Positions 9,017-57,015 of a DNA stretch of 64,000 nt are shown here, piece after piece; position 1 is the first letter of the stretch, and every line of letters starts with the position of its first letter. Source of the stretch: Alphaproteobacteria bacterium (GTDB lineage: Bacteria; Pseudomonadota; Alphaproteobacteria; Caulobacterales; Maricaulaceae); assembly GCA_024742735.1 (NCBI GenBank), contig JANSXV010000003.1, positions 124,001 to 188,000 on the forward strand, written 5' to 3'. The position numbers were made by a program, and so were the translations under genes. The notes under the pieces are model-generated. The model was not told the DNA's origin. It saw only the letters and a list, made by a program, of their open reading frames with translations, and did not search any database.

Positions 9017-9829
9017 ATGCGCAGCCTGCTCTTCGTTCCCGGATCGCGTCCTGAACGCATCGCCAAGGCGCTGGACGCCGGGGCGGACGCCGTCGTGGTC
9101 GATCTGGAGGACGCCGTCGCGCCGCACGCGAAGGACGCCGCTCGCGCTGCGATTCTGTCTGAACTGAGCACAGCCCGCCGGTTCGCGGTCCGGGTCAATC
9201 CGCTGGAGATCGAATGGGGCCGCGACGACGCCGATGCGCTGGCGGCCCACGGCCATGCGCCCGCCTTCGTCATGCTGCCCAAGGCCGAGAGCGCCGGTCA
9301 GATCGAAGTGCTGAGCGCCGCGCTGGGCGATCAGGCGGCAGGCGGGATCGTCCCGATCATCGAGAGCGCGCTCGGCCTGAAGAACGCCTGGGAGATCTGC
9401 GCGGCCGACGGCGTGACCGCCGTGCTGTTCGGCGGCGGCGACATGGCCGCCGACCTGGGCGTCGCCATGGACTGGGAGCCGCTCTTCTTCGCCCGCTCCC
9501 AGGTGGTCGCCGCCTGCGCCGCGGCTCAGGTCCCCGCCATCGACGTGCCCTGGCTGGATGTGAAGGACGAGGCCGGGCTCATCGCTGAAACCGAGCGGGT
9601 CAAAGCGCTGGGCTATCAGGCCAAGGCCTGCATTCACCCCGCTCAGGCAAGCCCTGTGAACGCCGTGTTCACGCCGTCGCAGGCCGACATCTCTCATGCC
9701 GAGCGCGTCATCGCCGCGCTGAAGGACGCCGGCGGCGGCGCGGCGCTGCTGGACGGCAAACTCATTGAAGCGCCGATCATACGGCGCGCCCGGCGCGTGC
9801 TCGAAGCGGCGCGTGCGGCGAACCCTTAA
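9017..9829 (+). CDS. HpcH/HpaI (CitE-like) CoA-ester lyase
   Basis: This 270-residue TIM-barrel lyase is of the CitE/malyl-CoA type. Signature stretches are LFVPGSRPERIAKAL (N-terminus), VVDLEDAV near residue 35 with the metal-binding Glu, RVNP, LPKAES, IIESALGL and ACIHPAQ near the C-terminus. Relatives cleave citramalyl-CoA, malyl-CoA or beta-methylmalyl-CoA to acetyl-CoA or pyruvate plus an acyl-CoA or aldehyde. With the MaoC and CaiB neighbours, a citramalyl-CoA or malyl-CoA type lyase is likely. The exact substrate cannot be read from sequence. Confidence 0.88.
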   Translation: MRSLLFVPGSRPERIAKALDAGADAVVVDLEDAVAPHAKDAARAAILSELSTARRFAVRVNPLEIEWGRDDADALAAHGHAPAFVMLPKAESAGQIEVLSAALGDQAAGGIVPIIESALGLKNAWEICAADGVTAVLFGGGDMAADLGVAMDWEPLFFARSQVVAACAAAQVPAIDVPWLDVKDEAGLIAETERVKALGYQAKACIHPAQASPVNAVFTPSQADISHAERVIAALKDAGGGAALLDGKLIEAPIIRRARRVLEAARAANP

Positions 9830-37515: not shown

Positions 37516-37592
37516 TGGCGTCCCCGACAGGATTCGAACCTGTGACCCTCAGATTAGGAATCTGATGCTCTATCCTGCTGAGCTACGGGGAC
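37516..37592 (-). tRNA. tRNA-Arg (anticodon CCT)
   Basis: The full cloverleaf is readable on the minus strand. The acceptor GTCCCCG pairs with CGGGGAC, the D stem is GCTC/GAGC, and the anticodon stem TCAGA/TCTGA has loop TTCCTAA (anticodon CCT, reads AGG). The T stem ACAGG/CCTGT has loop TTCGAAT, with discriminator G and encoded CCA. It is the left attachment site of the island; the 5' 48 nucleotides recur at 56968-57015. Its upstream leader is now island DNA. Confidence 0.97.
37545..37592. repeat. att site, left copy (inside intact tRNA-Arg)
   Basis: This is the left copy of the 48-bp direct repeat. It covers tRNA nucleotides 1 to 48 (acceptor 5' strand, D arm, anticodon arm and four variable-loop bases). 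Identity stops exactly at the first tRNA base. Confidence 0.9.
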
Positions 37593-37635: not shown

Positions 37636-37679
37636 CGAAGCGCGATAGATACCGGTTTCTAACAGCTTACGTATCAGCT

Positions 37680-37698
37680 TGGAAGCACTGTGGAAGCA
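37680..37698. promoter_or_regulatory. paired TGGAAGCA sites, left end (candidate integrase arm sites)
   Basis: Two TGGAAGCA units start 11 bp apart. The same arrangement recurs at 56827-56845 near the other end, in the same orientation, with 19 of 20 bases identical. One-helical-turn spacing and position near both att sites fit arm-type integrase or excisionase binding sites. Confidence 0.55.
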
Positions 37699-37840
37699 GC
37701 CGCGCTCATTCGATGGTGTCATGGTCTGCGAGCATCGGTCGCAGGGGAGGAAGTCTTAGAAGAATAGCCGCTCAAGGACCCTGATGCCTCGGGTTCGCAC
37801 CGCATCCCGAATCGATCCGGCCCATATGGCGCTGAAACGC

Positions 37841-37868
37841 AAACCGCCCCCGGCATGACCGAGGGCGG
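37841..37868 (-). terminator. terminator of the monooxygenase gene
   Basis: The minus strand has stem CCGCCCTCGG/CCGGGGGCGG (one mismatch) with loop TCATG, followed by TTT, about 30 bp after the stop at 37899. An almost identical hairpin lies at 41150-41178. Confidence 0.65.
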
Positions 37869-37898
37869 CTCGTCGTGCATTCAGCAAGTTTGAGCGTG

Positions 37899-41138: not shown

Positions 41139-41149
41139 CGGGTGAAACG

Positions 41150-41178
41150 AAAACCGCCCCCGGCAACACCGAGGGCGG
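41150..41178. terminator. hairpin terminator between LysR and the AlpA-like gene
   Basis: CCGCCCCCGG pairs with CCGAGGGCGG (one mismatch) around loop CAACA, and on the minus side TTTT follows. It is nearly identical to the hairpin at 37841-37868, which suggests duplication of a terminator within the island or a shared origin. Confidence 0.65.
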
Positions 41179-41202
41179 CTCACTTTCGTTCGTGGAACCA
41201 GC

Positions 41203-41397
41203 CTACGCGGCTTTGGGCTCCAATCCTTGTTCGATCCATTCAATCAGGTCCTGTTGCCGGTAGCGGATGCGACCATTGGGCAGCTCGATGTAACACGGCC
41301 CACCACCCCGGGACCGCATCCCCTCGAGGGTCCGGTGCGAAAAGCCCACGATCCGGGCCGCTTCCTTGGTGGTCAGGTACACGTGATTGTCGTTCAT
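41203..41397 (-). CDS. AlpA-like excisionase/regulator (MerR-type winged helix)
   Basis: This protein of 64 residues from the ATG at 41397 has the helix-turn-helix pattern LTTKEAARIVGFSHRTLEGM and then GPCYIELPNGRIRYRQQDLIEWIE. This is typical of AlpA/Xis-type DNA-binding proteins on prophages and islands, which direct excision or regulate early genes. An AGGAG lies just upstream. It is divergent from the Rep-like gene, across an AT-rich region. Confidence 0.85.
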   Translation of the reverse strand: MNDNHVYLTTKEAARIVGFSHRTLEGMRSRGGGPCYIELPNGRIRYRQQDLIEWIEQGLEPKAA

Positions 41398-41479
41398 ACG
41401 CACTCCTTTCTCCTGCTGCGGTTCCTTTCGCTTGAGTTCGCCGCGTCGGCGGCACGGCTTGAAGAAAGCATACGAGCCG

Positions 41480-41570
41480 CCTTATGTCTCTTGGGAAAAA
41501 TCGTCGATATTTGCCATATAAAACAATATCTTAAATTTCGTGTAATGATATGTATCGGTTATGTTCGTGC
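41480..41570. other. AT-rich stretch upstream of the Rep-like gene
   Basis: About 90 bp of markedly AT-rich DNA (for example ATAAAACAATATCTTAAATT) in a GC-rich island, lying between the divergent AlpA-like and Rep-like genes. It holds their promoters and could be a DNA-unwinding or origin region for the Rep-like protein; no nick site was recognised. Confidence 0.45.
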
Positions 41571-41584
41571 GGCAGGAGGGTGAA

Positions 41585-42829
41585 ATGAGTCATGTAGCGG
41601 GTTTGAGCAGCGGGTTGCCTGCGCATCTACGAGGCCGGGACCTTCATCTGCACGAAATTCATGGTCGCGCGCAGTTCAGGAAGGTCCTTCGCGGCTGGCT
41701 TCGCGATGCTCGTGGCTATTACTACGGCGCGCTCGATGTCGCCGAAGGTATTGCTCGACAGGCAGGCAAGCCGCCGCTCGTCACCATCAGCCAAGACCAG
41801 CTCGATCACAAAGTGGCCGAGGCTGCTATTGAAGCTTTCTGGATCGCCGAACGCGCAAGGCCTTCACGATTCAGAGACAGGCTGAACAAGGCCAAGACCG
41901 CGTGGAAAGCCGATCCGGTCAACAACCCCGGACCGGATGAAGAATTCGGCGTAACGGTAGAAGTCGACAACCCCGCACTCGTGTCCGTCACCGGCACTGG
42001 CTCAGATGATGGGGATCGGCTGGCATGGGTCGCCGCGCTAAAGCTGGCGGACGCCTATCGCGCCGCTTTGGAGTTCGAGGCTAAGCGCCAGAAAGACCGT
42101 GACTGGAATGAGCGCCACCTTGAGCGGCTTGAGAAGATCAAGGCGGTGAACTCCGGCAAATCGGCGACGCCTGTCCGGCTGCCGAGCGGGCATGTCATCT
42201 GGCCGGACGGCATACCAGCAAAGGCTAAGCGCAAGCGCAGCAGAAAGCGCTCCACGAGCCGTACAGTTACCTCCCCTTCCTCTTCTTCGACCGACACGAC
42301 CGACACACCGCCCCGGCAGTGGCGTGATCTCAGTCTCGAACAGAAGTGCGGGCTGATGGCTCAAAGCATCGAGTCCGAAGGGCGTGGTCTGTCGATCACG
42401 ATCAAGCTCGATCAGAAGGTTGTGAAAGCAGCTCACTCTGCAAAGAAAGGCCCCGTTTCGCACCTTCGGGAGCGCTTCGCGAGGGTCATTGATCGGTCCC
42501 TTGGTCGGGTGCCGGATTTTGTGATCGTGGCCGAACAGGGTCTTGGTCAGGAGCCGCACCTGCATGGGGTGATCGACCTCGAAGACACGCCAGAGAACCG
42601 CAAGGCTGTCAGACACGCTGGTGAGGTGCTGTCGGGATTGCCGCTTTACGGACCGGGGCGTGCTCGGATCGTGGATATTCAGCGGTTGGAAAACGGTGGG
42701 TTCTGGCCCGGTGACTACACCAAGAAATTCCGTCGCAGCACCCGGAGGCAGATGAAGATCGACCGGGTCATGGCACATACGCAGAATCTTGGACGCCGGG
42801 CCAAGGCAAGACACCAACAGACCAAGTGA
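41585..42829 (+). CDS. HUH-type replication initiation protein-like
   Basis: This protein of 414 residues from the ATG at 41585 has an AGGAGGG site. The C-terminal part carries a Rep-like core: VIVAEQGLGQEPHLHGVID with the HUH pair at about 325-327, and GDYTKKF with a possible catalytic Tyr near 378. A basic, Ser/Thr-rich linker (about 212-245) separates it from an N-terminal region of unknown fold. Similar genes occur beside alpA in integrated elements. It probably nicks the element's origin for rolling-circle replication; HUH relaxase is an alternative. Confidence 0.7.
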   Translation: MSHVAGLSSGLPAHLRGRDLHLHEIHGRAQFRKVLRGWLRDARGYYYGALDVAEGIARQAGKPPLVTISQDQLDHKVAEAAIEAFWIAERARPSRFRDRLNKAKTAWKADPVNNPGPDEEFGVTVEVDNPALVSVTGTGSDDGDRLAWVAALKLADAYRAALEFEAKRQKDRDWNERHLERLEKIKAVNSGKSATPVRLPSGHVIWPDGIPAKAKRKRSRKRSTSRTVTSPSSSSTDTTDTPPRQWRDLSLEQKCGLMAQSIESEGRGLSITIKLDQKVVKAAHSAKKGPVSHLRERFARVIDRSLGRVPDFVIVAEQGLGQEPHLHGVIDLEDTPENRKAVRHAGEVLSGLPLYGPGRARIVDIQRLENGGFWPGDYTKKFRRSTRRQMKIDRVMAHTQNLGRRAKARHQQTK

Positions 42830-45899: not shown

Positions 45900-46141
45900 T
45901 CAACGTCGGAGTAATGACCGGAAACATACCGTCATTCGCGCTCAGAAGCTCACAGGCGCGCGTTTCGGGTCCCGGATAGGCCGACCTACCTGAAATACAG
46001 AATCACGCTCTACGCGCCTCGGGGGGCATTTTACGAAGTGCAGCGCGTTCTCATTTCCCACGAGACGCCCACCTCATCATGAATACACTCTCCTTCGTGA
46101 CGCGATTTCAAGCGTCAAGATCAACAGATGAAGGAGAAGAC

Positions 46142-46600
46142 ATGAAGAAGACTGGCCCCGGTCGTCCGCCGACTTCCATCAACACCGGCACGAGCTATGC
46201 GCTCGCAGAATGGATGATGGAGAATCTCAACGAGCTGTCAGGCATGACCAACGCCGAGATCGCCGCCGAGCTTGGCTATGAGCGTTCGAACATCGTTGCG
46301 ATGTGGAAGACCGGTAAAACCCGCGTCGCGCTCCACGCGCTTAAGGGCATCGCCCGGCTTACGAATACGCCGCTCGAATTCCTGTTTCCGCTTTGGGTCG
46401 AGCAATACGCCAGGGAGAAGGGCGTGACAGCGCAGCCCTACACGGAGATGCTGTCGCGGATCGTGACGCCTGCGGAGTTCCGGCACATTCAGGCGATCCG
46501 GGACGCAGGATTGACCTGCGAGCACCTCACCGATGACCACAAGCACATCATGTCCCTGATGCTGATCGGTCCGGAGGGACGCGCGGAACTGTTCACGTAG
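46142..46600 (+). CDS. Cro/CI-like helix-turn-helix regulator
   Basis: This protein of 152 residues from the ATG at 46142 has an AAGGAG site. The HTH lies at about 35-75: MTNAEIAAELGYERSNIVAM, then LHALKGIARLTNTPLEFLF. The rest is helical with no known domain. It precedes the duplicated 228-bp block and is a candidate for the protein that binds the TATCGA-N3-TCGATA sites found in both block copies; this is inference. Confidence 0.75.
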   Translation: MKKTGPGRPPTSINTGTSYALAEWMMENLNELSGMTNAEIAAELGYERSNIVAMWKTGKTRVALHALKGIARLTNTPLEFLFPLWVEQYAREKGVTAQPYTEMLSRIVTPAEFRHIQAIRDAGLTCEHLTDDHKHIMSLMLIGPEGRAELFT

Positions 46601-46663
46601 ACCTCCGCCCGGAGTTGGGTGGCCTCAAACCGGCCACCCGCTCGCTTCGGCTAAAGTGCGCTA

Positions 46664-46890
46664 ATTGTTGGGGCAAAGTTCACCGCTTTTCGGCGGTTTT
46701 GCCCTGACACCCTCACCGAACACCTCGCCATTCGCTCCCTGGCGGTCATAGGCGCGCGCCGTTAAATCGTCCGCTGTTCACCATACCGAACCACGCCTCG
46801 CGCCCCTATGAGCGTCTGGCGAGGATTGGCGGTGTATATGCCCGCCTTATCGAAATTCGATATGGCGCTTGTGCAGTGCCGGCTCACGAA
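46664..46890 (+). repeat. 228-bp imperfect direct repeat, copy 1
   Basis: This block closely matches 48163-48392; most of the sequence aligns, with long identical runs such as GAGCGTCTGGCGAGGATTGG. It starts with a terminator-like hairpin (ACCGC/GCGGT, then TTTT) and ends with a TATCGA-N3-TCGATA palindrome. It thus pairs a terminator for the gene before it with an operator region for the gene after it. Confidence 0.85.
46848..46862. promoter_or_regulatory. palindromic operator TATCGA-N3-TCGATA, copy 1
   Basis: A perfect 15-bp palindrome TATCGA-AAT-TCGATA within repeat copy 1, about 163 bp before the secreted-protein gene. The same arms recur in copy 2 with AAA in the centre, so the arms are conserved while the centre varies. 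Confidence 0.6.
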
Positions 46891-47024
46891 GCTTTGCCGC
46901 CCCGCGTCAAGTTATACCCACCCGCATCATCAATGACGCACGGTCGCCTGCTGCAAAGCCGAATTCCTATGGATGACAATCCATTCCGGCTTTAAGGTGT
47001 GCAGACATTTGGGGGGAAATCACG

Positions 47025-48116
47025 ATGAAGCTTGTTTTTCGCGCCGCCGCTGCGGTTGTTGTTACGCCAGCGCTCTCTGTTGGCGCGCTCCTTGCCGCTG
47101 ACCAATTGACGCCAGCAGAAGGAAACGCTGCCGGGACACCTGTTTATGGAGACCGGCAGGCTTCACCTTCCCGATATGATCTATTCAGCCCCCCTTCGCC
47201 GGATGAGGCTGCGGCGGTCAACGCGGCATGTGGGTTCTCCCGCTCGCTGACCGGCGGTGGACACTTGGTCCGCCTCAATGGTGATCCGGTAGATACCGTT
47301 CTGATCGACGCCGCCGACGATGGTGGAGCTGGTGAGGACGGCACGCTGAGGCGGTTTTATGCTCGCGCCGATGCTGTTCATGCCTTTGCTTATGAGGGAG
47401 AGCTGTACATTCAGGCCGGACATACTGACCGTGACGGCTTTGATGGCCGGGTGTGGCTGCTGAACGATAATGGTGAGGCAAGTTTCAGCGGGCCGCTTCT
47501 CTCGCGTGGACGGATCGCTCTTCCATGCGACGATGCATACTCTGCGGCTGAGCTGTTCAACGATGTGATTGCGTCTGGCGACGACCTGGTGGCGGACCCG
47601 ATACGCGCCGCAGTCCGCGCTTTCGAAATCGGAGATGGCGTGCCGGAGTGGGAACTCCCCCGCGTTGACGCTCTGGTCAGCGCTTGCACGCCAGATGCAG
47701 CGCTCGCAGACCTGCCTTCAGACGCGCCGTTCGTCCTGACCGCCGAGTATGATGCTGATGCGCGTTTGGGCGAAGAGATTGTACACGACATGTCCGGCGA
47801 GAGCCTTGCGGGCGTGGCTGAACCCATGGTTCAAGTCGTAATCGCAGACCTTACAGATACGCCGGATTACGGCTATATCCGGAACCTGAGCATCCCCTTG
47901 AGCTGGTCTTTCTTACCGCAGGGCGACGGCGCCGTTTCCCCCGTCTTCCGGTTCGAGGCCATAGAGACTCGTGAATGGCTGATCGAGGCGAATGGCGCGA
48001 GACTTCATGGCATGGGGACGGGCGCGGTTTCCGATGCAAGCATTCCTTGCGCCGACCCCGAAGCAGGGGCGGCAGCACTCCAAGCGCTTCGCGAACGGGA
48101 AATCGCTGGCGGCTAA
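47025..48116 (+). CDS. secreted protein of unknown family (island cargo)
   Basis: This 363-residue protein has an N-terminal signal (VFRAAAAVVVTPALSVGALLA). The mature part is acidic and rich in Asp and Ala, with a few Cys that could form disulfides (ACGFSRS, LVSACTPD, SIPCADPE). No domain was recognised. It sits alone between two copies of a 228-bp terminator-operator block, so it looks like an inserted cassette. A role in defence or in the cell envelope cannot be decided. Confidence 0.75.
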   Translation: MKLVFRAAAAVVVTPALSVGALLAADQLTPAEGNAAGTPVYGDRQASPSRYDLFSPPSPDEAAAVNAACGFSRSLTGGGHLVRLNGDPVDTVLIDAADDGGAGEDGTLRRFYARADAVHAFAYEGELYIQAGHTDRDGFDGRVWLLNDNGEASFSGPLLSRGRIALPCDDAYSAAELFNDVIASGDDLVADPIRAAVRAFEIGDGVPEWELPRVDALVSACTPDAALADLPSDAPFVLTAEYDADARLGEEIVHDMSGESLAGVAEPMVQVVIADLTDTPDYGYIRNLSIPLSWSFLPQGDGAVSPVFRFEAIETREWLIEANGARLHGMGTGAVSDASIPCADPEAGAAALQALREREIAGG

Positions 48117-48162
48117 ACGGAGCACTTGCTGGAAGCTCTCATTGCGCGAGCAGTGCGTCGTC

Positions 48163-48392
48163 ATTGTTGTCGGCTGTAAGTTCACCGCTTGTCGGCGGTT
48201 TCAGCCTGACTCCCACACCCAACCCTACGCCATTCGCTCCCTGACGGTCACAGGCGCGCGCCGTGAGGTCGTCCGCTGGTCAGTATGTCGAACCACGCCT
48301 CGCGCCCCTGTGAGCGTCTGGCGAGGATTGGCGGTGTATAAGCTAAATTTATCGAAAATCGATATGACGCTTTCGCGGCGCCGGCGCACGAA
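48163..48392 (+). repeat. 228-bp imperfect direct repeat, copy 2
   Basis: This copy matches 46664-46890. The hairpin ACCGC/GCGGT lies at 48184-48199, and the palindrome at 48350-48364. It directly precedes the restriction-modification operon, so it is likely the original control region of that operon. Confidence 0.85.
48350..48364. promoter_or_regulatory. palindromic operator TATCGA-N3-TCGATA, copy 2
   Basis: A 15-bp palindrome TATCGA-AAA-TCGATA, 146 bp before the hsdM start. Conservation of both arms between the diverged copies suggests selection for protein binding. Confidence 0.6.
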
Positions 48393-48509
48393 TACGCAGC
48401 CGCTTTGACGCGCTCGAACCCATACGCTGCGCGCACCTCCCGGCTTCCCACCGCCCCGCCGACTCCGCTACATGTGGCGTCGGATACAACACGGGGGAGA
48501 AACGCGGCG

Positions 48510-50048
48510 ATGGTGACCGGGGAGATAAAGGGCCAGATCGATCAGATATGGAATGCGTTCTGGTCGGGCGGGGTGTCCAATCCGCTCTCGGTGATCGAGC
48601 AGATCACCTACCTGCTCTTCATCAAGCGGCTCGACGAGCTTCACACGATGGAAGAGAGCAAGTCGAACCGGCTCAAGAAGCCGATGGAGCGCCGCTATTT
48701 TCCCAAGGGTGAGGACGAGCTGGGCCTTCCATACGAGGACATGCGCTGGTCCCGGTTCAAAGGCTATGACGCCGCGCGAATGTTCGTGATCGTCGACCGG
48801 CACGTCTTCCCTTACCTGCGCAACATGAACGGGCACGGCACCGCCTATTCTCAGCACATGAAAGACGCGCGGCTCGGCTTTTCCAGCCCGGCGCTCCTGG
48901 CGAAGGTCGTCGACCTCCTCGACAAGGTGAAAATGGACGACCGCGACACCAAGGGCGACGTGTACGAATACATGCTCGCCAAGATCGCGAGCGCCGGACA
49001 GAACGGGCAGTTCCGCACCCCGCGCCACATCATCCAGCTCATCGTCGAGATGGTGAAGCCGACGCCCAAGGACGTGATCTGCGATCCGGCGGCGGGCACG
49101 GCGGGTTTCCTCGTGGCGGCGGGCGAATACCTGCGCGATCACCACAAGGACCTTTTCAGCGATCCCGATCTGCGCGCGCACTTCAACGAGGGCCTGTTCC
49201 ACGGGTTCGAGTTCGACAACACCATGCTGCGCATCGGCGCCATGAACATGATCCTGCACGGGGTCGAGAACCCGAACATCACCTATCGCGACAGCCTGTC
49301 TGAAGACCATGCCGAAGATAAGGGCGCGTATTCGCTCATCCTCGCCAACCCGCCCTTCGCCGGATCGCTCGACTATGAGGCGACGGCGGCGGACCTTCAG
49401 CGCATCGTGAAGACCAAGAAGACCGAGCTGCTGTTCCTCGCGCTCTTCCTGCGTCTGCTCCGTACCGGTGGCCGCGCGGCGGTGATCGTGCCGGACGGGG
49501 TGCTGTTCGGCTCATCGAAAGCGCACAAGACGATCCGCGAAACGCTGGTGGAGAAGCACAAGCTCGATGCGGTGGTGAAGCTGCCGTCGGGCGTGTTCCG
49601 CCCCTATGCCGGGGTGTCGACCGCCATCCTGTTCTTCACCAAGACCGATGTGGGCGGCACCGATCAGGTCTGGTTCTACGATGTCCAGGCCGACGGGGTT
49701 TCGCTGGACGACAAGCGCACGCCGCTCCTGCCCGAAGATAAGCTCGGCCCGTGCCCGGATACGACGCTGACCGAAGACGAGCACGCCAAGAACAATCTGC
49801 CCGACGTGCTGCTGCGCTGGTCGCTGCGCAATGCATCCGAATTGGACCGGCCCCGCACCGCGCAAAGCTTCTGCGTATCGAAGGATGAGATCGCGGCGGC
49901 GGGCTATGACCTCTCGCTCAACCGCTACAAGGAGGTCGAGCACGAGGCGGTCGAATACGACCCGCCGGAGACCATCATCGCCCAGCTGCGCGAGATCGAG
50001 GCCGAGATCGCCGACGGCCTGACCGAGCTTGAGGAGATGCTGCGGTGA
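48510..50048 (+). CDS. hsdM: type I restriction-modification system, methyltransferase subunit
   Basis: This protein of 512 residues from the ATG at 48510 has a GGGGGAG site. It methylates adenine in the recognised sequence. An N-terminal HsdM helical domain (about 5-140) is followed by the N6-adenine methyltransferase core, with the SAM motif DPAAGTAGF at about 192-200 and the catalytic NPPF at 280-283. It overlaps hsdS by four bases. It is the first gene of the hsd operon. Confidence 0.95.
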   Translation: MVTGEIKGQIDQIWNAFWSGGVSNPLSVIEQITYLLFIKRLDELHTMEESKSNRLKKPMERRYFPKGEDELGLPYEDMRWSRFKGYDAARMFVIVDRHVFPYLRNMNGHGTAYSQHMKDARLGFSSPALLAKVVDLLDKVKMDDRDTKGDVYEYMLAKIASAGQNGQFRTPRHIIQLIVEMVKPTPKDVICDPAAGTAGFLVAAGEYLRDHHKDLFSDPDLRAHFNEGLFHGFEFDNTMLRIGAMNMILHGVENPNITYRDSLSEDHAEDKGAYSLILANPPFAGSLDYEATAADLQRIVKTKKTELLFLALFLRLLRTGGRAAVIVPDGVLFGSSKAHKTIRETLVEKHKLDAVVKLPSGVFRPYAGVSTAILFFTKTDVGGTDQVWFYDVQADGVSLDDKRTPLLPEDKLGPCPDTTLTEDEHAKNNLPDVLLRWSLRNASELDRPRTAQSFCVSKDEIAAAGYDLSLNRYKEVEHEAVEYDPPETIIAQLREIEAEIADGLTELEEMLR

Positions 50049-51217
50049 GTTGGCCAATGGTGGCGTTGGGGGAGGTGGCGGAGATCGACCGCTCCGGGAT
50101 CGACCCCGGAAAGATCGAAGACGGAACCGCATATCTCGGCCTCGAACATATTGAGTCAGGCGGCCGGATCATCGGCTCTGAGGCGGTCGGCCCCGGCGAC
50201 CTCAAAAGCATGAAGTTCGCCTTCACTCCCGACCACGTCCTGTTCGGAAAGCTGCGTCCATACCTCGGCAAGATCGCTCTTCCAGAGGAGCCAGGCATAT
50301 GCAGCACGGACATCGTGCCTATTAAGCCCGGTCCGAAACTCGACCGTGCTTTCCTCGCGTATTGTCTTCGTCAGCCGCAGATGGTGGCGAAAGCTGCCGA
50401 GCGGGCCACTGGGGCCAACCTTCCGCGTCTCAGCCCCAAAGAGCTTGAACGCCTCGAAATCCCCCTCCCGCCCCTCGACGAGCAGAAGCGGATCGCGGCG
50501 ATCCTCGACAAGGCGGATGCACTGCGGCGGGCGCGGGAAGCCAAGACCGACATCTATGACGATCTGTCTGTATCAGTTTTCTACGACCTGTTCGGCGACC
50601 CATTCCTGAATGACCGCAATTGGGATGATAGCGTTCAACTCGGCGCGGTTTCTGAGATCGCCTCTGGCATCACCAAAGGCCGAAAGACAAACGGTGCTGA
50701 GTTGGTTGAAACGCCTTACCTTGCGGTCTCCAATGTTCAGGATCGAAGGATCGACCTCTCCGTCGTGAAGACGATCGCCGCAACAGAGACTGAGCGGGCA
50801 AGATTCAAGCTTCGACCTGACGATCTGCTCCTCACTGAAGGGGGTGATCCTGACAAGCTCGGACGGGGCGCTCTATGGGACGGCCAGATTTCTGTCTGTA
50901 TCCATCAGAACCATGTGTTCCGCGTCCGGTTCGACACGGCGAAGGTCGTGCCGGTTTTTGGAATGTGGCTCATTGGGAGCGTGCGAGGCAGGCGGTACTT
51001 TTTGAAGTCGGCAAAGCAGACAACCGGCATCGCATCCATCAACAAGACCCAGCTGCGTGAGTTTCCGATGCTGTGTCCGCCCATTGAGCTTCAACAGACA
51101 TTTGCCGAACGTATCGCGCGGATCGTGCAGGCCAGGAGGCGCGCTGAGGACGCTCTGGTCAAGGCTCAAAGCCTCTTCACCTCCCTTCAACACCGCGCCT
51201 TCGCAGGCGAGCTATGA
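50045..51217 (+). CDS. hsdS: type I restriction-modification system, specificity subunit
   Basis: This 390-residue protein has two target-recognition domains (about 5-150 and 200-350), each followed by a conserved helix (IPLPPLDEQKRIAAILDKAD after the first; LCPPIELQQTFAERIARIV after the second). It sets the DNA sequence recognised by the complex with HsdM and HsdR. The GTG start overlaps the hsdM stop (GTGA). The target cannot be predicted by eye. Confidence 0.94.
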   Translation: MSWPMVALGEVAEIDRSGIDPGKIEDGTAYLGLEHIESGGRIIGSEAVGPGDLKSMKFAFTPDHVLFGKLRPYLGKIALPEEPGICSTDIVPIKPGPKLDRAFLAYCLRQPQMVAKAAERATGANLPRLSPKELERLEIPLPPLDEQKRIAAILDKADALRRAREAKTDIYDDLSVSVFYDLFGDPFLNDRNWDDSVQLGAVSEIASGITKGRKTNGAELVETPYLAVSNVQDRRIDLSVVKTIAATETERARFKLRPDDLLLTEGGDPDKLGRGALWDGQISVCIHQNHVFRVRFDTAKVVPVFGMWLIGSVRGRRYFLKSAKQTTGIASINKTQLREFPMLCPPIELQQTFAERIARIVQARRRAEDALVKAQSLFTSLQHRAFAGEL

Positions 51218-51258: not shown

Positions 51259-51648
51259 ATGACGCGAGAGGCTCAGCCGCGATCCATTACGGTCTATGAG
51301 GACGCCGACGGCAATGCGGCGTTCGACACTTGGTTCAACGGACTTGAGGCTCGTGCAGCGGCCCGCGTGACCCGTGCGCTCACCCAGCTTGAACGGGGCG
51401 GCGGCGATCTGAAAGCCCTGGGCGAAGGCGTGGCGGAGCTGCGCATCAACTACGGCCCCGGCTACCGGGTCTATTTCGGGCAGGACGGCGAGACGCTGAT
51501 CATCCTGCTTTGTGGAGGCACAAAGAAGCGTCAGCAGAAGGACATCGAGCACGCCAAGGCGCTTTGGGCCGACTACAAGGCCCGGAAGGCGCAAGCGGCG
51601 GCGGACGCGACACCGAAGACGAAGATCAAGAAGAACAAGAAGAGCTGA
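51259..51648 (+). CDS. RelE/HigB-type toxin (addiction module killer protein family)
   Basis: This 129-residue toxin has the ParE/RelE-fold pattern of the Gp49/HigB-like group: AAFDTWFNGLEARAAARVTR, then VAELRINYGPGYRVYFGQDG and LCGGTKKRQQKDIEHAK. A Lys-rich tail follows (KTKIKKNKKS). Members are usually ribosome-dependent mRNA nucleases. It precedes its antitoxin by 11 bp, the toxin-first order of this family, and is inside the hsd operon. Confidence 0.88.
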   Translation: MTREAQPRSITVYEDADGNAAFDTWFNGLEARAAARVTRALTQLERGGGDLKALGEGVAELRINYGPGYRVYFGQDGETLIILLCGGTKKRQQKDIEHAKALWADYKARKAQAAADATPKTKIKKNKKS

Positions 51649-52093: not shown

Positions 52094-55000
52094 ATGAGCC
52101 AGTTCGCCTTCCTCAAAGCCGACTTCCCGGAGGTCTACGCCAACGCCGAGCGCGCTGAGAGGCTGGTGAAGGGTGATCCGCGCGGGGCGTCCTTCTACGC
52201 CCGGCTCGCGCTGGAAACGGCTGTGAAGTGGATATACCGGCACGACGGCGCGCTGGGCGATCCGTATCAGGATACGCTCTCGGCGATGGTCCATCATTCC
52301 AGCTTCCGGGCGGTGGCGGGCGAAGCGCTGGTCGCCAAGGCGCGGGTGGTCATCAAGCGCGGCAATTTCGCGGCCCATGACAGCCGGGCGATCTCCGAGA
52401 CCGACGCGATCTCGGCGGTGCGCGAGCTGTTCCATTTCACTTACTGGCTTCAGCGCACCTATGGCCGCAGCGTCCCGGACGACGGGCTTCAATTCGCGGT
52501 CGATGCGCTGCCCCAACTGGCGGAGGTCAAAGCCTCGACGCTCGGCCAGCTCACCACGCTGGCGAAGAACTATCGCGAACAGTCCGAGAAGCTGAAAGCC
52601 GCCGAAGCGGCGCGTCTGAAGGACGAAGAGGCGCGCGCCAAGCTTGAGGCCGAGCTGGCCGCGCTTCGCGCGCTGGTCGCTGAGCGCAAGGCTGAGAACG
52701 CGACGGTGCCAGACCGGCACGACTACAACGAAGCCGCCACGCGCGACGCGTTGATCGACGTGCTGCTGCGCGAAGCCGGATGGGCGCTGGATCGCCCCGA
52801 AGACATCGAGTTCGAAGTCGACGGCATGCCGAAACGCGAGCCGACCAGCACCGGCAAGGGCCGCATCGACTACGTGCTGTGGGGCGATGACGGCAAGCCG
52901 CTCGGTCTGGTCGAAGCCAAACGCACCAAGCGCGATCCACGCGAGGGCCAGCACCAGGCCAAGCTCTATGCCGACTGTCTGGAAGCCCGCTACGGTCAGC
53001 GTCCGGTGATCTTCTATTCGAACGGCTATGACCACTGGATGTGGGACGACGAAGCCCATCCGCCGCGCGAGGTGCAGGGCTTCTACAAGAAGGACGAGCT
53101 GGCTCTGCTGATCCAGCGCCGCAGTCGGGCGAAGTCGCCCGCGACGCTCGACATCGACGCGGACATCGCAGGCCGCTCCTACCAGATGCGCGCGATCCGG
53201 CGCGTGTGTGAAAGCTTCGAAGTGGAGGGCCGTCGCCGGGCCTTGCTCGTCATGGCGACCGGCACCGGCAAGACGCGCACAACGATTGCGCTGGTGGATT
53301 TGCTGATGCGCGCCAATTGGGTGCGCCGCGTCCTGTTCATTGCCGACCGCCGCGCGCTGGTGAAGCAGGCCTACAACGCGTTCAAGAAGCACCTGCCGAG
53401 CACCACGCTCGCCACGACGAACGCCGGTCACGATCCGGCGGGCGGAAACGATCTCTACAATTCGCGGGTCGTGGTCGCGACCTACCCATCCATGATGAAA
53501 CGGATCGACGCCATTGAAGAAGGCGAGCGCCCCTATGGCGTCGGGCATTTCGATCTGATCGTCGTCGATGAGGCGCACCGGTCGATCTACAAGAAATTCG
53601 GGTCGATCTTCGAGTATTTCGACGGTCATCTGCTCGGCCTGACCGCGACGCCGAAGGACGAGGTCGACCGCGACACCTACAAGACGTTCGAGCTTGAGAA
53701 CGGCGTGCCGACCGACGCCTATCCGCTCGAAGAAGCGGTCGAGGACGGGCACCTTGTCCCGCCGATCCCGTATTCGGTGCCGCTGAAATTCCAGCGCGAG
53801 GGTATCAAGTACGACGACCTCTCCGACGAGGAGAAGGATCAATGGGACGCGCTGGAATGGAATGAAGAGGGCGAGGTCCCCGACGAGGTCGACCCCGACG
53901 CGGTCAACAAATGGCTGTTCAACACTGACACCGTCGACAAGGTGCTCGCGCACCTGATGGAGCATGGCGTCCGGGTCAATGAGGGCGACCGGCTCGGCAA
54001 GACGATCATTTTCGCGAAATCGAACGAGCACGCCTATTTCATCGCCAAGCGTTTCGATGCGAACTACCCGCACCTCAAGGGCAAGTTCGCGCAGGTCATC
54101 ACCTATAAGACCGAGCACGCCCAATCGCTGATCGACAACTTCTCGGACCCCGAGAAGGACCCGCACATCGCGATCTCGGTCGACATGCTCGACACCGGCA
54201 TCGACGTGCCGGAGGTGGTGAACCTCGTCTTCTTCAAGCTGGTCCGGTCCAAGACGAAATTCTGGCAGATGATCGGTCGCGGCACGCGTCTGTGTGAGGA
54301 CTTGTTCGGCCCAGGCCGCAACAAGGATCACTTCGCGATCTTCGACTTCTGCCAGAATTTCGAGTTCTTCAACCAGAACCCGGACCTGCGCGAGCCGAAG
54401 TCCCCCGACACGATCACCAAGCGCCTGTTCGTCAAACGCCTCGACCTGATCGCCAAGCTTTCTCCTGAAACGGCGACGCGGTCCGGCGATGGTGTCGCCG
54501 AGGAGGGTGAGCGGTTTCTTTCCGAAGAAGAGGAAGCCCGCCAGATGCTGAAGACGCAGCTCGCTGACCTCCTGCATTACGAGGTCGCGGCGATGAGCCT
54601 CGACAACTTCATCGTCCGCGCCAAGCGCAAGACCGTCGAACCGTTTCAGGATCGCGAGCGCTGGTCTGATCTCTCGCAGGAAGACCGTCATCAGCTCGCG
54701 GAACATGTCGCCGGACTGCCCTCTGCGCAGAAGCCGGAGCACATCACGGCCAAGCAATTCGACAGCCTGATCCTCAGCGCTCAACTCGCACTGCTCTCCG
54801 GCGAGGCCTCCTTCGCCAAGCTGGCCGACCGCATCCGCCTCATCGCGGGCGAGCTGGCCGAGCGCTCAAACATCCCGACCGTCGCGGCGCGCATCGACCT
54901 GATCGAAGAAATCCAGACCGACACCTTTTGGGAGGGCGTGAACGTCGTCTTGCTTGAAGACGTGCGTTTGAAGCTCCGCGCGTTGGTCCAGCTCATTGAG

Positions 55001-55585
55001 CCGAAGTCGCGCAAGCCGGTCTATACAGATTTCGAGGATGAGATCGGTCCGGCTACTGAAGCGACGTTGACGAACAGCGCGGTGGGCACCGACCTTGTCC
55101 GTTTCCGGGCGAAGACGCGCCGCTTCCTCGAAGATCACCGTGATCACATCGCGGTGCGGAAGCTGCATCGGAACGAACACCTCACGCCCACCGACCTCGA
55201 TGAGCTTGAAAAGATTATGCGGTCCGAAGGCGTGGGCGATGACGACGCGTTCAACCGCGTGCGGTCCGACCTCGGGGGATTGGGCCGGTTCGTGCGCAGC
55301 CTGATCGGCCTGGACCGGGAAGCGGCGAAGGAGGCCTTTTCAACGCTGCTGGCCGGGTCTTCGCTCTCCGCGAGCCAGATCGACTTCATCGAGCTGCTGA
55401 TCGAAGAGCTGACGCGCTCCGGCGTGGTCGAGGCGGGGCGTCTCTATGAGCCGCCGTTTACAGACACCAGCCCCCTCGGCATCGACGGCCTGTTCAAGGA
55501 CGCCGACGCCGAAAAGGTGGTGAGCATACTTGGAGAAATCGAACGCAGGACGCTTCCGAGCGAACCGCAGGAAGCGGCAGTTTGA
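52094..55585 (+). CDS. hsdR: type I restriction-modification system, restriction/translocase subunit (EcoEI-like)
   Basis: This 1163-residue protein has an N-terminal DUF4145 domain (about 1-115), a coiled segment (about 155-205), and a PD-(D/E)xK nuclease with D259, E274 and K276 in GRIDYVLWGD and GLVEAKR. The helicase motor has Walker A MATGTGKT at 387-394, DEAH at 492-495 and later motifs (MIGRGTRLCEDLFG). A C-terminal EcoEI-type domain ends the protein. It cleaves unmodified DNA after ATP-driven translocation. Confidence 0.94.
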   Translation: MSQFAFLKADFPEVYANAERAERLVKGDPRGASFYARLALETAVKWIYRHDGALGDPYQDTLSAMVHHSSFRAVAGEALVAKARVVIKRGNFAAHDSRAISETDAISAVRELFHFTYWLQRTYGRSVPDDGLQFAVDALPQLAEVKASTLGQLTTLAKNYREQSEKLKAAEAARLKDEEARAKLEAELAALRALVAERKAENATVPDRHDYNEAATRDALIDVLLREAGWALDRPEDIEFEVDGMPKREPTSTGKGRIDYVLWGDDGKPLGLVEAKRTKRDPREGQHQAKLYADCLEARYGQRPVIFYSNGYDHWMWDDEAHPPREVQGFYKKDELALLIQRRSRAKSPATLDIDADIAGRSYQMRAIRRVCESFEVEGRRRALLVMATGTGKTRTTIALVDLLMRANWVRRVLFIADRRALVKQAYNAFKKHLPSTTLATTNAGHDPAGGNDLYNSRVVVATYPSMMKRIDAIEEGERPYGVGHFDLIVVDEAHRSIYKKFGSIFEYFDGHLLGLTATPKDEVDRDTYKTFELENGVPTDAYPLEEAVEDGHLVPPIPYSVPLKFQREGIKYDDLSDEEKDQWDALEWNEEGEVPDEVDPDAVNKWLFNTDTVDKVLAHLMEHGVRVNEGDRLGKTIIFAKSNEHAYFIAKRFDANYPHLKGKFAQVITYKTEHAQSLIDNFSDPEKDPHIAISVDMLDTGIDVPEVVNLVFFKLVRSKTKFWQMIGRGTRLCEDLFGPGRNKDHFAIFDFCQNFEFFNQNPDLREPKSPDTITKRLFVKRLDLIAKLSPETATRSGDGVAEEGERFLSEEEEARQMLKTQLADLLHYEVAAMSLDNFIVRAKRKTVEPFQDRERWSDLSQEDRHQLAEHVAGLPSAQKPEHITAKQFDSLILSAQLALLSGEASFAKLADRIRLIAGELAERSNIPTVAARIDLIEEIQTDTFWEGVNVVLLEDVRLKLRALVQLIEPKSRKPVYTDFEDEIGPATEATLTNSAVGTDLVRFRAKTRRFLEDHRDHIAVRKLHRNEHLTPTDLDELEKIMRSEGVGDDDAFNRVRSDLGGLGRFVRSLIGLDREAAKEAFSTLLAGSSLSASQIDFIELLIEELTRSGVVEAGRLYEPPFTDTSPLGIDGLFKDADAEKVVSILGEIERRTLPSEPQEAAV

Positions 55586-55589
55586 GGCC

Positions 55590-56777
55590 TCACCGCCCCC
55601 GGAACGATCCGACAAGCGCGCCGACACCAGAAGCGACCCCACGCACGGTCTCGTCCGTCAGGTGAGCGTAACGCTGCGTCGTCTTCACGTCCTTGTGCCC
55701 AAGCGCTCCCCCAACCGCGTAAAGCGGTGCGCCATTGTTCACGGCGAATGAGGCGAATGAGTGCCGGAGATCGTGAATCCGCACATCATTCAAGTTCGCG
55801 CGGCGACGGATGCGATCCCAAGCGCCCTTGATACAGGGCACCGGCTGCTCCGGCTTCCGGGGTGACGGAAAGACATACCGGACCGAGGGCGTCGGGCACT
55901 CACGCTTCCAACGCCGGAGAAGGTCAGCCGCTTCGGGAGAAAGCTGACGGGCAAAAGCTTTGCGCGTAAGGCGCTCGCCCTTCTGCTGCCCCACCGGGAT
56001 CAGCCACGTAGGCGTCTCGGTCGCCAGACCTTTCAGGTCCCGCCACTCCATCGAGAAGACCTCGCTCTTGCGAGCACCGGTAAGGATAAGGAATTCCACG
56101 ATCCGCGCTGCGGTCTGGTTTTCGTCCGCGTCACAGGCCGCGAGAAGGCGTTCGGTCTCCTCCGCCGAAAGATAACGTTCAATCTGGTTCTCCGGGTACT
56201 TCTTGACCGCACGGCAGGGGTTGGTCTCGCGCCACTCGTTCTGGATCGCGAAAGTGAACATCATCGACAAGAGCGCAAACGAGCGATTGGCGGCTCCGGG
56301 GGTGTCGTGCATCTTGGACATCATGGCCCGGACCTCGGCCACGCTGACGTTGGCCACCTTCTCCTTGGCGAAACGGGGCGCGAGGTGCATGCGCCAGAGG
56401 CGTTCATCCTCGGCGACGCTCCGGGGTTTCTTGTTGGGCTTGGCGTGCTGCTCAAGATACGCGTCCCACAGGTCCGCCATTGTCGGCGCAGTGAGACGCC
56501 CCTTACGCTCCTGAGACGGGTCCTCGCCTTGATCCACCTGAACACGCAGCGCACGGGCACGCTCGCGGGCCTCGGTGACGGTCATCGTGGTCTTGCCGAT
56601 CCGGGTAGAGCGCTGGCGGCCATCCGCCGTGCGGTAGAAGAAGGCGAAGGACTTCGACCCGGCCTTGGTCACGCGGACATGAAGGCCTGAGACCTCGGTG
56701 TCCCATACCTTGTAGTCCTGTCCGGTCGTAGCGAGCGCGCGGACATTGGTGTTGGTGAGTTTCAGCTTGTTGGGCAC
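55590..56777 (-). CDS. tyrosine-type site-specific integrase
   Basis: This protein of 395 residues from a GTG at 56777 has an AGGAGGGG site. It has an arm-binding DUF4102-like N-terminus (about 1-95), a SAM-like core-binding domain (about 100-195) and a catalytic domain with Arg236 (TGARKSE), H335-x-x-R338 (HDLRHS), His361 (LGHKD) and Tyr370. It integrates the island at tRNA-Arg(CCT). It converges on hsdR (stops 4 bp apart). The tRNA's original promoter may now read into it. Confidence 0.93.
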   Translation of the reverse strand: MPNKLKLTNTNVRALATTGQDYKVWDTEVSGLHVRVTKAGSKSFAFFYRTADGRQRSTRIGKTTMTVTEARERARALRVQVDQGEDPSQERKGRLTAPTMADLWDAYLEQHAKPNKKPRSVAEDERLWRMHLAPRFAKEKVANVSVAEVRAMMSKMHDTPGAANRSFALLSMMFTFAIQNEWRETNPCRAVKKYPENQIERYLSAEETERLLAACDADENQTAARIVEFLILTGARKSEVFSMEWRDLKGLATETPTWLIPVGQQKGERLTRKAFARQLSPEAADLLRRWKRECPTPSVRYVFPSPRKPEQPVPCIKGAWDRIRRRANLNDVRIHDLRHSFASFAVNNGAPLYAVGGALGHKDVKTTQRYAHLTDETVRGVASGVGALVGSFRGR

Positions 56778-56826
56778 GTTCCCCTCCTGTTCTTTCGGGC
56801 CTCTGACATGCGTCCCGGAAGCTTCG

Positions 56827-56845
56827 TGGAAGCACCGTGGAAGCA
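56827..56845. promoter_or_regulatory. paired TGGAAGCA sites, right end (candidate integrase arm sites)
   Basis: Two TGGAAGCA units start 11 bp apart, matching 37680-37698 in orientation and spacing. They lie 50 bp upstream of the integrase start, so bound integrase could also repress its own gene. Confidence 0.55.
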
Positions 56846-56967
56846 GTTCGGATCGAAAATTCGCGTATCCGAACGAGATCGAAAGTACCGAGGGGGCCGG
56901 AAAAGCCAATACTGATCAGAGATTTGGCGTATGCGTGCGTAGACGAGAGAACAAGCGCGAAGGAGAA

Positions 56968-57015
56968 ACCCTCAGATTAGGAATCTGATGCTCTATCCTG
57001 CTGAGCTACGGGGAC
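56968..57015 (-). pseudogene. att site, right copy: 5' half of tRNA-Arg(CCT)
   Basis: The exact 48-bp copy of tRNA nucleotides 1-48, ending in the variable loop; the T arm and 3' acceptor strand are missing. Its upstream flank (57016 onward) is probably the original chromosomal leader of the tRNA. If transcribed it would yield a truncated 5' tRNA RNA. Confidence 0.9.

Follow-up and report, generated by a model that had tools for sequence, protein, structure and literature searches.

A duplicated structured block ahead of exchanged defence genes is a candidate cargo-control region of a tRNA-Arg island

The window, a stretch of 64,000 nucleotides from a bacterium of the Maricaulaceae, contains an island of about 19.5 kb that is flanked by 48-bp direct repeats of tRNA-Arg (CCT) sequence and encodes a tyrosine integrase, an excisionase-like protein, a HUH-motif protein and an HTH regulator (Table 1). 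A related tRNA-Arg island with these same genes is present in a second genome of the same genus, G010, where it measures about 8.6 kb and is enclosed by 52-bp repeats (ACG). The two islands are collinear over positions 37677-37871, the excisionase region (41143-41499), the HUH-motif gene, the HTH gene, a non-coding block and positions 55362-56987. DNA identity amounts to 71% for the HUH-motif gene (41688-42757), to 85% for the HTH gene (46054-46596) and to 89.6% for 55362-56987, which comprises the end of hsdR and the integrase gene. Genes found only in the island of the window lie at 37.9-41.1 kb (monooxygenase, LysR) and at 42.8-46 kb (SnoaL, flavodoxin-like, TetR). The islands sit in tRNA-Arg genes with opposite polarity, the repeat corresponding to the 5' part of the tRNA in the window and to the 3' part in G010.

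The HUH-motif protein had no match in phage and plasmid records or in the viral_contigs collection. For the HTH protein, nothing was found in the genome_contigs and viral_contigs collections, and plasmid records gave four weak matches (30-34%); its structure model reached a mean pLDDT of 40.2, too poor for use. The defence genes of the island comprise hsdM, hsdS and hsdR, which together make up a type I restriction-modification system. The start of hsdM was placed at 48510 by comparison with its relative in genome G006. A Gp49-like (toxin-type) gene is located between hsdS and hsdR (51259-51648).

Table 1 Features of the island, its block copies and the related sites
Feature	Position	Strand	Basis or remark
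tRNA-Arg (CCT), left island end	37516..37592	-	contains the left direct repeat
Left 48-bp direct repeat (att)	37545..37592	.	repeat comparison
Excisionase-like HTH_17 protein	41203..41403	-	domain match
HUH-motif protein P0002	41561..42829	+	motif seen by eye; weak Pfam match to a replication protein (E = 0.11); identity to G010 60%
HTH regulator P0001	46079..46600	+	88% identical in G010; start 46142 likelier from ribosome site, by eye
Block copy 1	46665..46890	+	between HTH gene and 363-aa protein gene; sequence comparison
Small hairpin, copy 1	46682..46697	+	arms ACCGCT/GGCGGT; terminator-like by eye only, not called by terminator scan
Long hairpin, copy 1	46720..46835	+	fold better than shuffles; covariation not above shuffles
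Dyad TATCGAAATTCGATA, operator-like, copy 1	46848..46862	.	pattern scan
363-aa protein, secreted-looking	47025..48116	+	signal-like N-terminus by eye; relatives chromosomal
Block copy 2	48167..48392	+	upstream of hsdM; sequence comparison
Small hairpin, copy 2	48184..48199	+	alignment/fold
Long hairpin, copy 2	48222..48337	+	fold vs shuffles
Dyad TATCGAAAATCGATA, operator-like, copy 2	48350..48364	.	pattern scan
hsdM leader common to G006 (block-free)	48428..48509	+	sequence comparison
hsdM, type I methylase	48510..50048	+	domain match
hsdS, type I specificity subunit	50045..51217	+	domain match
hsdR, type I restriction subunit	52094..55585	+	domain match
hsdR part with counterpart scar in G010 (73 codons compared)	55364..55585	+	sequence comparison
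Tyrosine integrase of island	55590..56909	-	Phage_integrase 1.1e-25, Arm-DNA-bind_3 1.6e-17
Right 48-bp direct repeat (att)	56968..57015	.	repeat comparison
G010 52-bp repeats	C1:2179917-2179968 and 2188480-2188531		repeat comparison
Chromosomal TATCG-N5-CGATA sites	G000 C19:44824, C30:483990 and 484008, C30:548794; L070, L071, L107		DUF2975/HTH_26 locus, bactofilin-like gene, Imm_superinfect protein

The block occurs in the window as two direct, gap-free copies that start 1502 nt apart. They are identical at 187 of 226 positions (82.7%), which confirms the original prediction of two diverged copies flanking one gene, with copy 2 directly ahead of hsdMSR; the repeat is real as well, at a measured length of 226 nt instead of the 228 bp given there. 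In each copy, a small hairpin is followed by a long one of about 116 nt and then by a TATCG-N5-CGATA dyad. The terminator-like hairpin proposed for the start of each copy is thus present, but it was not called by a terminator scan, which was uninformative; the palindrome proposed for the end is also there, but the similarity between the copies extends 28 nt beyond it. In the own genome (3.23 Mb, 34 contigs) a third strong match to the block is absent, the third of the best 10 matches listed having E = 0.42. A further strong hairpin, seen by eye, lies directly upstream of the gene for the 363-aa protein (46957-46996).

Folding of a 147-nt core was compared with dinucleotide shuffles. The two copies of the window gave z = -4.40 and -4.31 and the single copy of G010 gave z = -3.16, and among 200 shuffles 0, 2 and 0, respectively, folded as well as the core. 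On the minus strand the values were -3.80, -3.86 and -1.57, so that two copies fold nearly as well as on the plus strand. Standard pairs make up 96.6% of the pair cells. Covariation did not exceed that of shuffles (174 of 500 shuffles), and the hairpin, a putative RNA structure, is therefore conserved mainly by sequence. Variable pair columns are kept by G-U in five cases on the plus strand versus one on the minus strand (manual count, p about 0.11), and there is one compensatory change; the G-U count is a weak hint that the plus strand is the structured one. A promoter scan, likewise uninformative, recognized no promoter. Rfam searched on 45900-48700 pointed to no known structured RNA family, giving a single chance-level match elsewhere (E = 2.6).

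BLAST detected the block in 2 of 61 genomes and, among 137 genomes of the family, in two. The same two of the 137 were recovered with a covariance model of the block, which matched the known copies and one reverse strand only; in 21 sources, some of which overlap or adjoin the window, nothing but the known copies and their reverse strands scored below E = 0.5. The own genome holds two copies and G010 one. The block had no DNA match in phage and plasmid records, and two 21-base block patterns, searched once each in the genome_contigs and viral_contigs collections, gave no match; diverged copies escape such exact patterns, and the collections may not include near genomes. No description of the block was found in the open-licence literature among the matches listed, and neither the dyad sequence nor a conserved promoter ahead of cargo genes was mentioned in the open-licence literature found.

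In local alignments, copy 1 is 85.5% identical to the G010 block (200 aligned columns) and copy 2 89.5% (191 columns); the corresponding BLAST stretches show 87.3% over 189 nt for copy 1 and 81.7% over 263 nt, including the downstream region, for copy 2. For third codon positions of the same two islands, identity is 68% in the HTH gene, 77% in the part of hsdR shared with G010 and 78% in the integrase gene. The block hence evolves more slowly than third codon positions, which is clearest in the core; because of the 81.7% identity, the margin is smaller for the 263-nt stretch. Recombination between islands could be a source of this likeness.

Behind its single block, G010 carries different cargo, namely the gene of a small RHH protein and a type II restriction-modification module in which a C5 methylase is paired with a NotI-like endonuclease. 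Between the stop codon of the NotI-like gene and the integrase gene, 73 codons of hsdR are left that are open in frame and 89.5% identical to the window at the DNA level. It is therefore very likely that the G010 island descends from one with this hsdR, the rest of which was replaced while the block was retained. On the left side, similarity between the window and G010 reaches about 48447, some 20 nt into the hsd leader as defined by G006; this stretch may be a second scar, its roughly 20 nt being too short to be sure. The different restriction systems behind the block together with the hsdR scar indicate that defence cargo was exchanged behind it, and the replacement of the hsd cargo by another defence system behind a retained block is well supported by the sequence comparison. 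The scar documents directly, at the sequence level, the replacement of one defence system by another inside a mobile island.

Both cargo modules also exist without the block. G006 has the same hsd operon (84% in the hsdM region, 81% in hsdR) in another setting, where the homology starts at 48428 and no block is present. Relatives of the NotI-like module occur at 67-68% in G001, G027 and G062, and as a short piece in G025, all of them genomes without the block. Swapping of defence cargo behind the block, as originally proposed, is thus borne out by the two restriction systems and the scar; for the block itself mediating the swap there is no sign, because the right-hand border falls inside hsdR.

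The gene enclosed by the two copies codes for a 363-aa protein that, at the limits used, matched nothing in Pfam, PHROG, PADLOC or NCBIfam and whose structure model had a mean pLDDT of 35.9, too poor for use. Its earlier description as an unknown secreted protein agrees with this result and, by eye, with its N-terminus. Relatives were found in six other of 398 genomes of the order, all in the same family and at best 63% identical. In the six stretches fetched around them, no integrase was recognized by eye and the dyad was absent throughout; one contains a transposase-like ORF 2.7 kb from the relative. Blastn of 46600-48520 against these stretches yielded matches in three, inside the gene, besides one 38-nt match at chance level. 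Judged from these relatives, the gene looks like a captured chromosomal gene. Had the duplication been recent, copies 1 and 2 should be more alike than either is to G010, so copy 1 is probably older or derived from another island. Copy 1 with its gene represents an added unit, for which an older or imported copy is a better reading than a fresh duplication.

The original prediction further held that the gene had been inserted together with a copy of the control region, as in a cassette. This was not upheld, since no other genome shows the duplication and the relatives of the enclosed gene make up a chromosomal family. The arrangement of one gene flanked by two copies was seen once, and the suggested genome search for cargo between copies ended with 2 of 137 family genomes and the duplication only here, an outcome that had been named beforehand as speaking against the idea. 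In G010, the stretch from the HTH gene to the block holds a 93-aa ORF (no Pfam match) and a metallophosphoesterase gene, neither with a block of its own. With two copies in one genome only and a swap border inside hsdR, the arrangement also differs from an integron-type cassette array, in which every cargo border has a recombination site and the cargo between copies varies.

We also searched for the dyad in the window and beyond. Within the window, the pattern with up to three mismatches gave three matches at two places versus 0.05 expected. The minus strand of the block reads CATATCG-N4-TCGAT, and this sequence occurs exactly at five sites in the own genome (reversed control pattern, 0). Two of them are the blocks, one lies at a DUF2975/HTH_26 locus and two form a tandem pair near a gene with a below-cutoff bactofilin match. 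With at most one mismatch, sites were present in all 15 genomes of the genus, 192 in total versus 18 for the reversed control (manual sums), many of the 192 being counted twice because the pattern is nearly palindromic. The site in the G010 block is the same as that at the DUF2975 locus of G000 and G010, and the site of copy 2 is, among the matches listed, identical to sites in G007 and G008. The block site thus agrees with the chromosomal sites in sequence, and it is by sequence only that block and chromosomal loci share this operator-like site.

At the DUF2975 locus, the site is located beside an RdgB-like gene (named by eye) in at least 10 genomes, and the DUF2975 protein was identified there in G000, G007, G009, G010 and G012. 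A close dyad lies upstream of a 60-aa protein in G000, G001, G009 and G011; the protein of G000, the only one tested, matches Imm_superinfect (PF14373, 6.2e-20). Another 17 stretches around sites with at most one mismatch were picked mainly for AT-rich dyads, two GC-rich ones (L105, L106) being included as likely chance matches. Genes in the fetched loci were called with a crude ORF picker and are sometimes on the wrong strand. A scan of 21 other loci, comprising distant islands and relatives of the hsd, NotI-type and 363-aa genes, did not reveal the N5 dyad; two of these loci show variants in which the spacer is 4 and 3 bases long. Upstream of the HTH gene of the island, such a dyad is missing as well.

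The chromosomal HTH_26 protein (domain match 1.1e-22) is a natural candidate reader of the dyad because the site lies at its own locus; as the site sits there between divergent genes, either of them may be the target. Another candidate is the HTH protein of the island, which shows weak similarity to HTH_26 (0.013; distant relative 2.4e-4). Since both block copies carry the same dyad, it is plausible that a single regulator reads both.

We consider it moderately probable that the block is a cargo-control region of the tRNA-Arg integrative island, which is kept while the defence genes behind it change; this reading draws on two islands. The hairpins would separate an upstream transcript from the cargo, and the TATCG-N5-CGATA dyad would be the operator for an HTH_26/XRE-type repressor, either the chromosomal HTH_26 protein with the same site at its own locus or the HTH protein of the island. 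With a promoter placed at or after the dyad, the block would set the expression of the 363-aa gene behind copy 1, of hsdMSR behind copy 2 and of the NotI-like module in G010. Against this speak the lack of a recognized promoter, the two block-free genes of G010 and the island HTH gene without an upstream dyad. A more far-reaching version, in which a fixed structured leader with an operator of the chromosomal DUF2975/HTH_26 regulon puts any landing defence module under a host circuit, is tentative and rather doubtful. If it held, this regulon may in some genomes also cover a superinfection-immunity-type membrane protein.

Other explanations have to be weighed against control of the cargo. The block might be a structured RNA gene (a small RNA or a long 3' UTR element) rather than mainly an operator, with its position at the cargo being incidental. 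Strong folding in all three copies, the compensatory change and the G-U columns (p about 0.11) are in line with this; yet covariation does not rise above shuffles, a DNA dyad would fold equally well, and neither an Rfam match nor a promoter was found, so that we regard an RNA gene as unlikely. Similarly unlikely is an ordinary leftover of recombination between two related islands, with two intergenic copies devoid of any role and a likeness due to recent exchange. Such recombination would explain why copies 1 and 2 resemble each other less than either resembles G010, and the duplication is confined to one genome; however, the block is more alike than the third codon positions of the same islands, and its dyad is common to conserved chromosomal loci.

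The island encodes a HUH-motif protein, and a block that combines a long hairpin with a dyad behind it and is confined to the two islands would suit a replication or transfer site at which this protein recognizes a single-stranded hairpin, the cargo being inserted beside it. We take this to be improbable, as in both islands the block is found directly before the cargo, at a distance of about 4 kb from the HUH gene, one island carries it twice, and the dyad has counterparts in chromosomal promoter regions; in addition, the HUH assignment is weak (Pfam E = 0.11), and distant HUH islands that were searched lack the block. As to a dispersed palindromic repeat or small transposon, the block is palindromic, non-coding and present twice, but neither the own genome nor the remaining 135 genomes of the family contain further copies. 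This copy number nearly refutes the idea and renders it highly improbable, and a MITE with several copies at unrelated places was dismissed as a candidate for the same reason.

A cargo-control block may be compared with several known systems. P4-like satellites carry Psu or other capsid-hijacking genes and a P4 replication gene. A PHROGs search on part of the island ORFs gave no Psu, capsid-hijacking or P4 replication match among those proteins; the island does have a tyrosine integrase with a P4-type arm-binding domain, and it is integrated in a tRNA gene with att repeats. The defence hotspot of P4-like satellites is located between psu and int, and the native promoters were included when systems were cloned (Rousset et al. 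2022, PMC9122126). These are likewise small integrase-bearing islands with exchangeable defence genes adjoining the integrase, but the available part of that report describes no shared control block and lacks the word 'terminator', whereas here a non-coding block stays while the cargo changes. In the BrxR-regulated pEFER island, as far as the accessible sections of the paper show, one repressor has inverted-repeat sites at two places in one defence island (PMC9122601). There, the repressor is an island-encoded WYL-domain protein; here, the candidates are of the HTH_26/XRE type, one of them chromosomal, and the predicted site lies inside a longer structured block. Listeria immigration control regions (ICR) also hold different R-M types at one locus, which is a fixed chromosomal one without mention of a shared leader in the portion of the text at hand (PMC10059834), in contrast to the mobile island here. 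A further likeness is offered by Caulobacter and its phage phiCbK, where phage and chromosomal XRE regulators have overlapping binding sites; these are different XRE proteins, and in the part of the text available neither a defence cargo leader nor DUF2975 is mentioned (PMC10688885). Defence hotspots in small islands are thus known, while it is less clear how a newly arrived restriction system comes under control. A leader retained through a cargo change, with a site common to chromosomal loci, would for one island family give an answer that is concrete and can be tested.

Finally, HUH-motif matches were obtained in nine other of the 398 genomes of the order, the two weakest with E = 0.0003-0.0007 and one of those with stop codons. 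In two of the nine, G041 and G405, an HTH match lies about 7 kb from the HUH match. The covariance model did not find the block in the distant HUH islands searched, these two included. The G041 island contains a reverse transcriptase gene (RVT_1, 2e-21; L039:10446-11693), which is possibly defence cargo. In the G405 island the HTH gene occurs twice (L040:2502-2900 and 9333-9779; 86% over 408 bp), and the second copy directly precedes an Eco57I-type methylase gene. In G109 (L042:7600-11188), long direct repeats that are 99.7-99.9% identical lie inside a large ORF.
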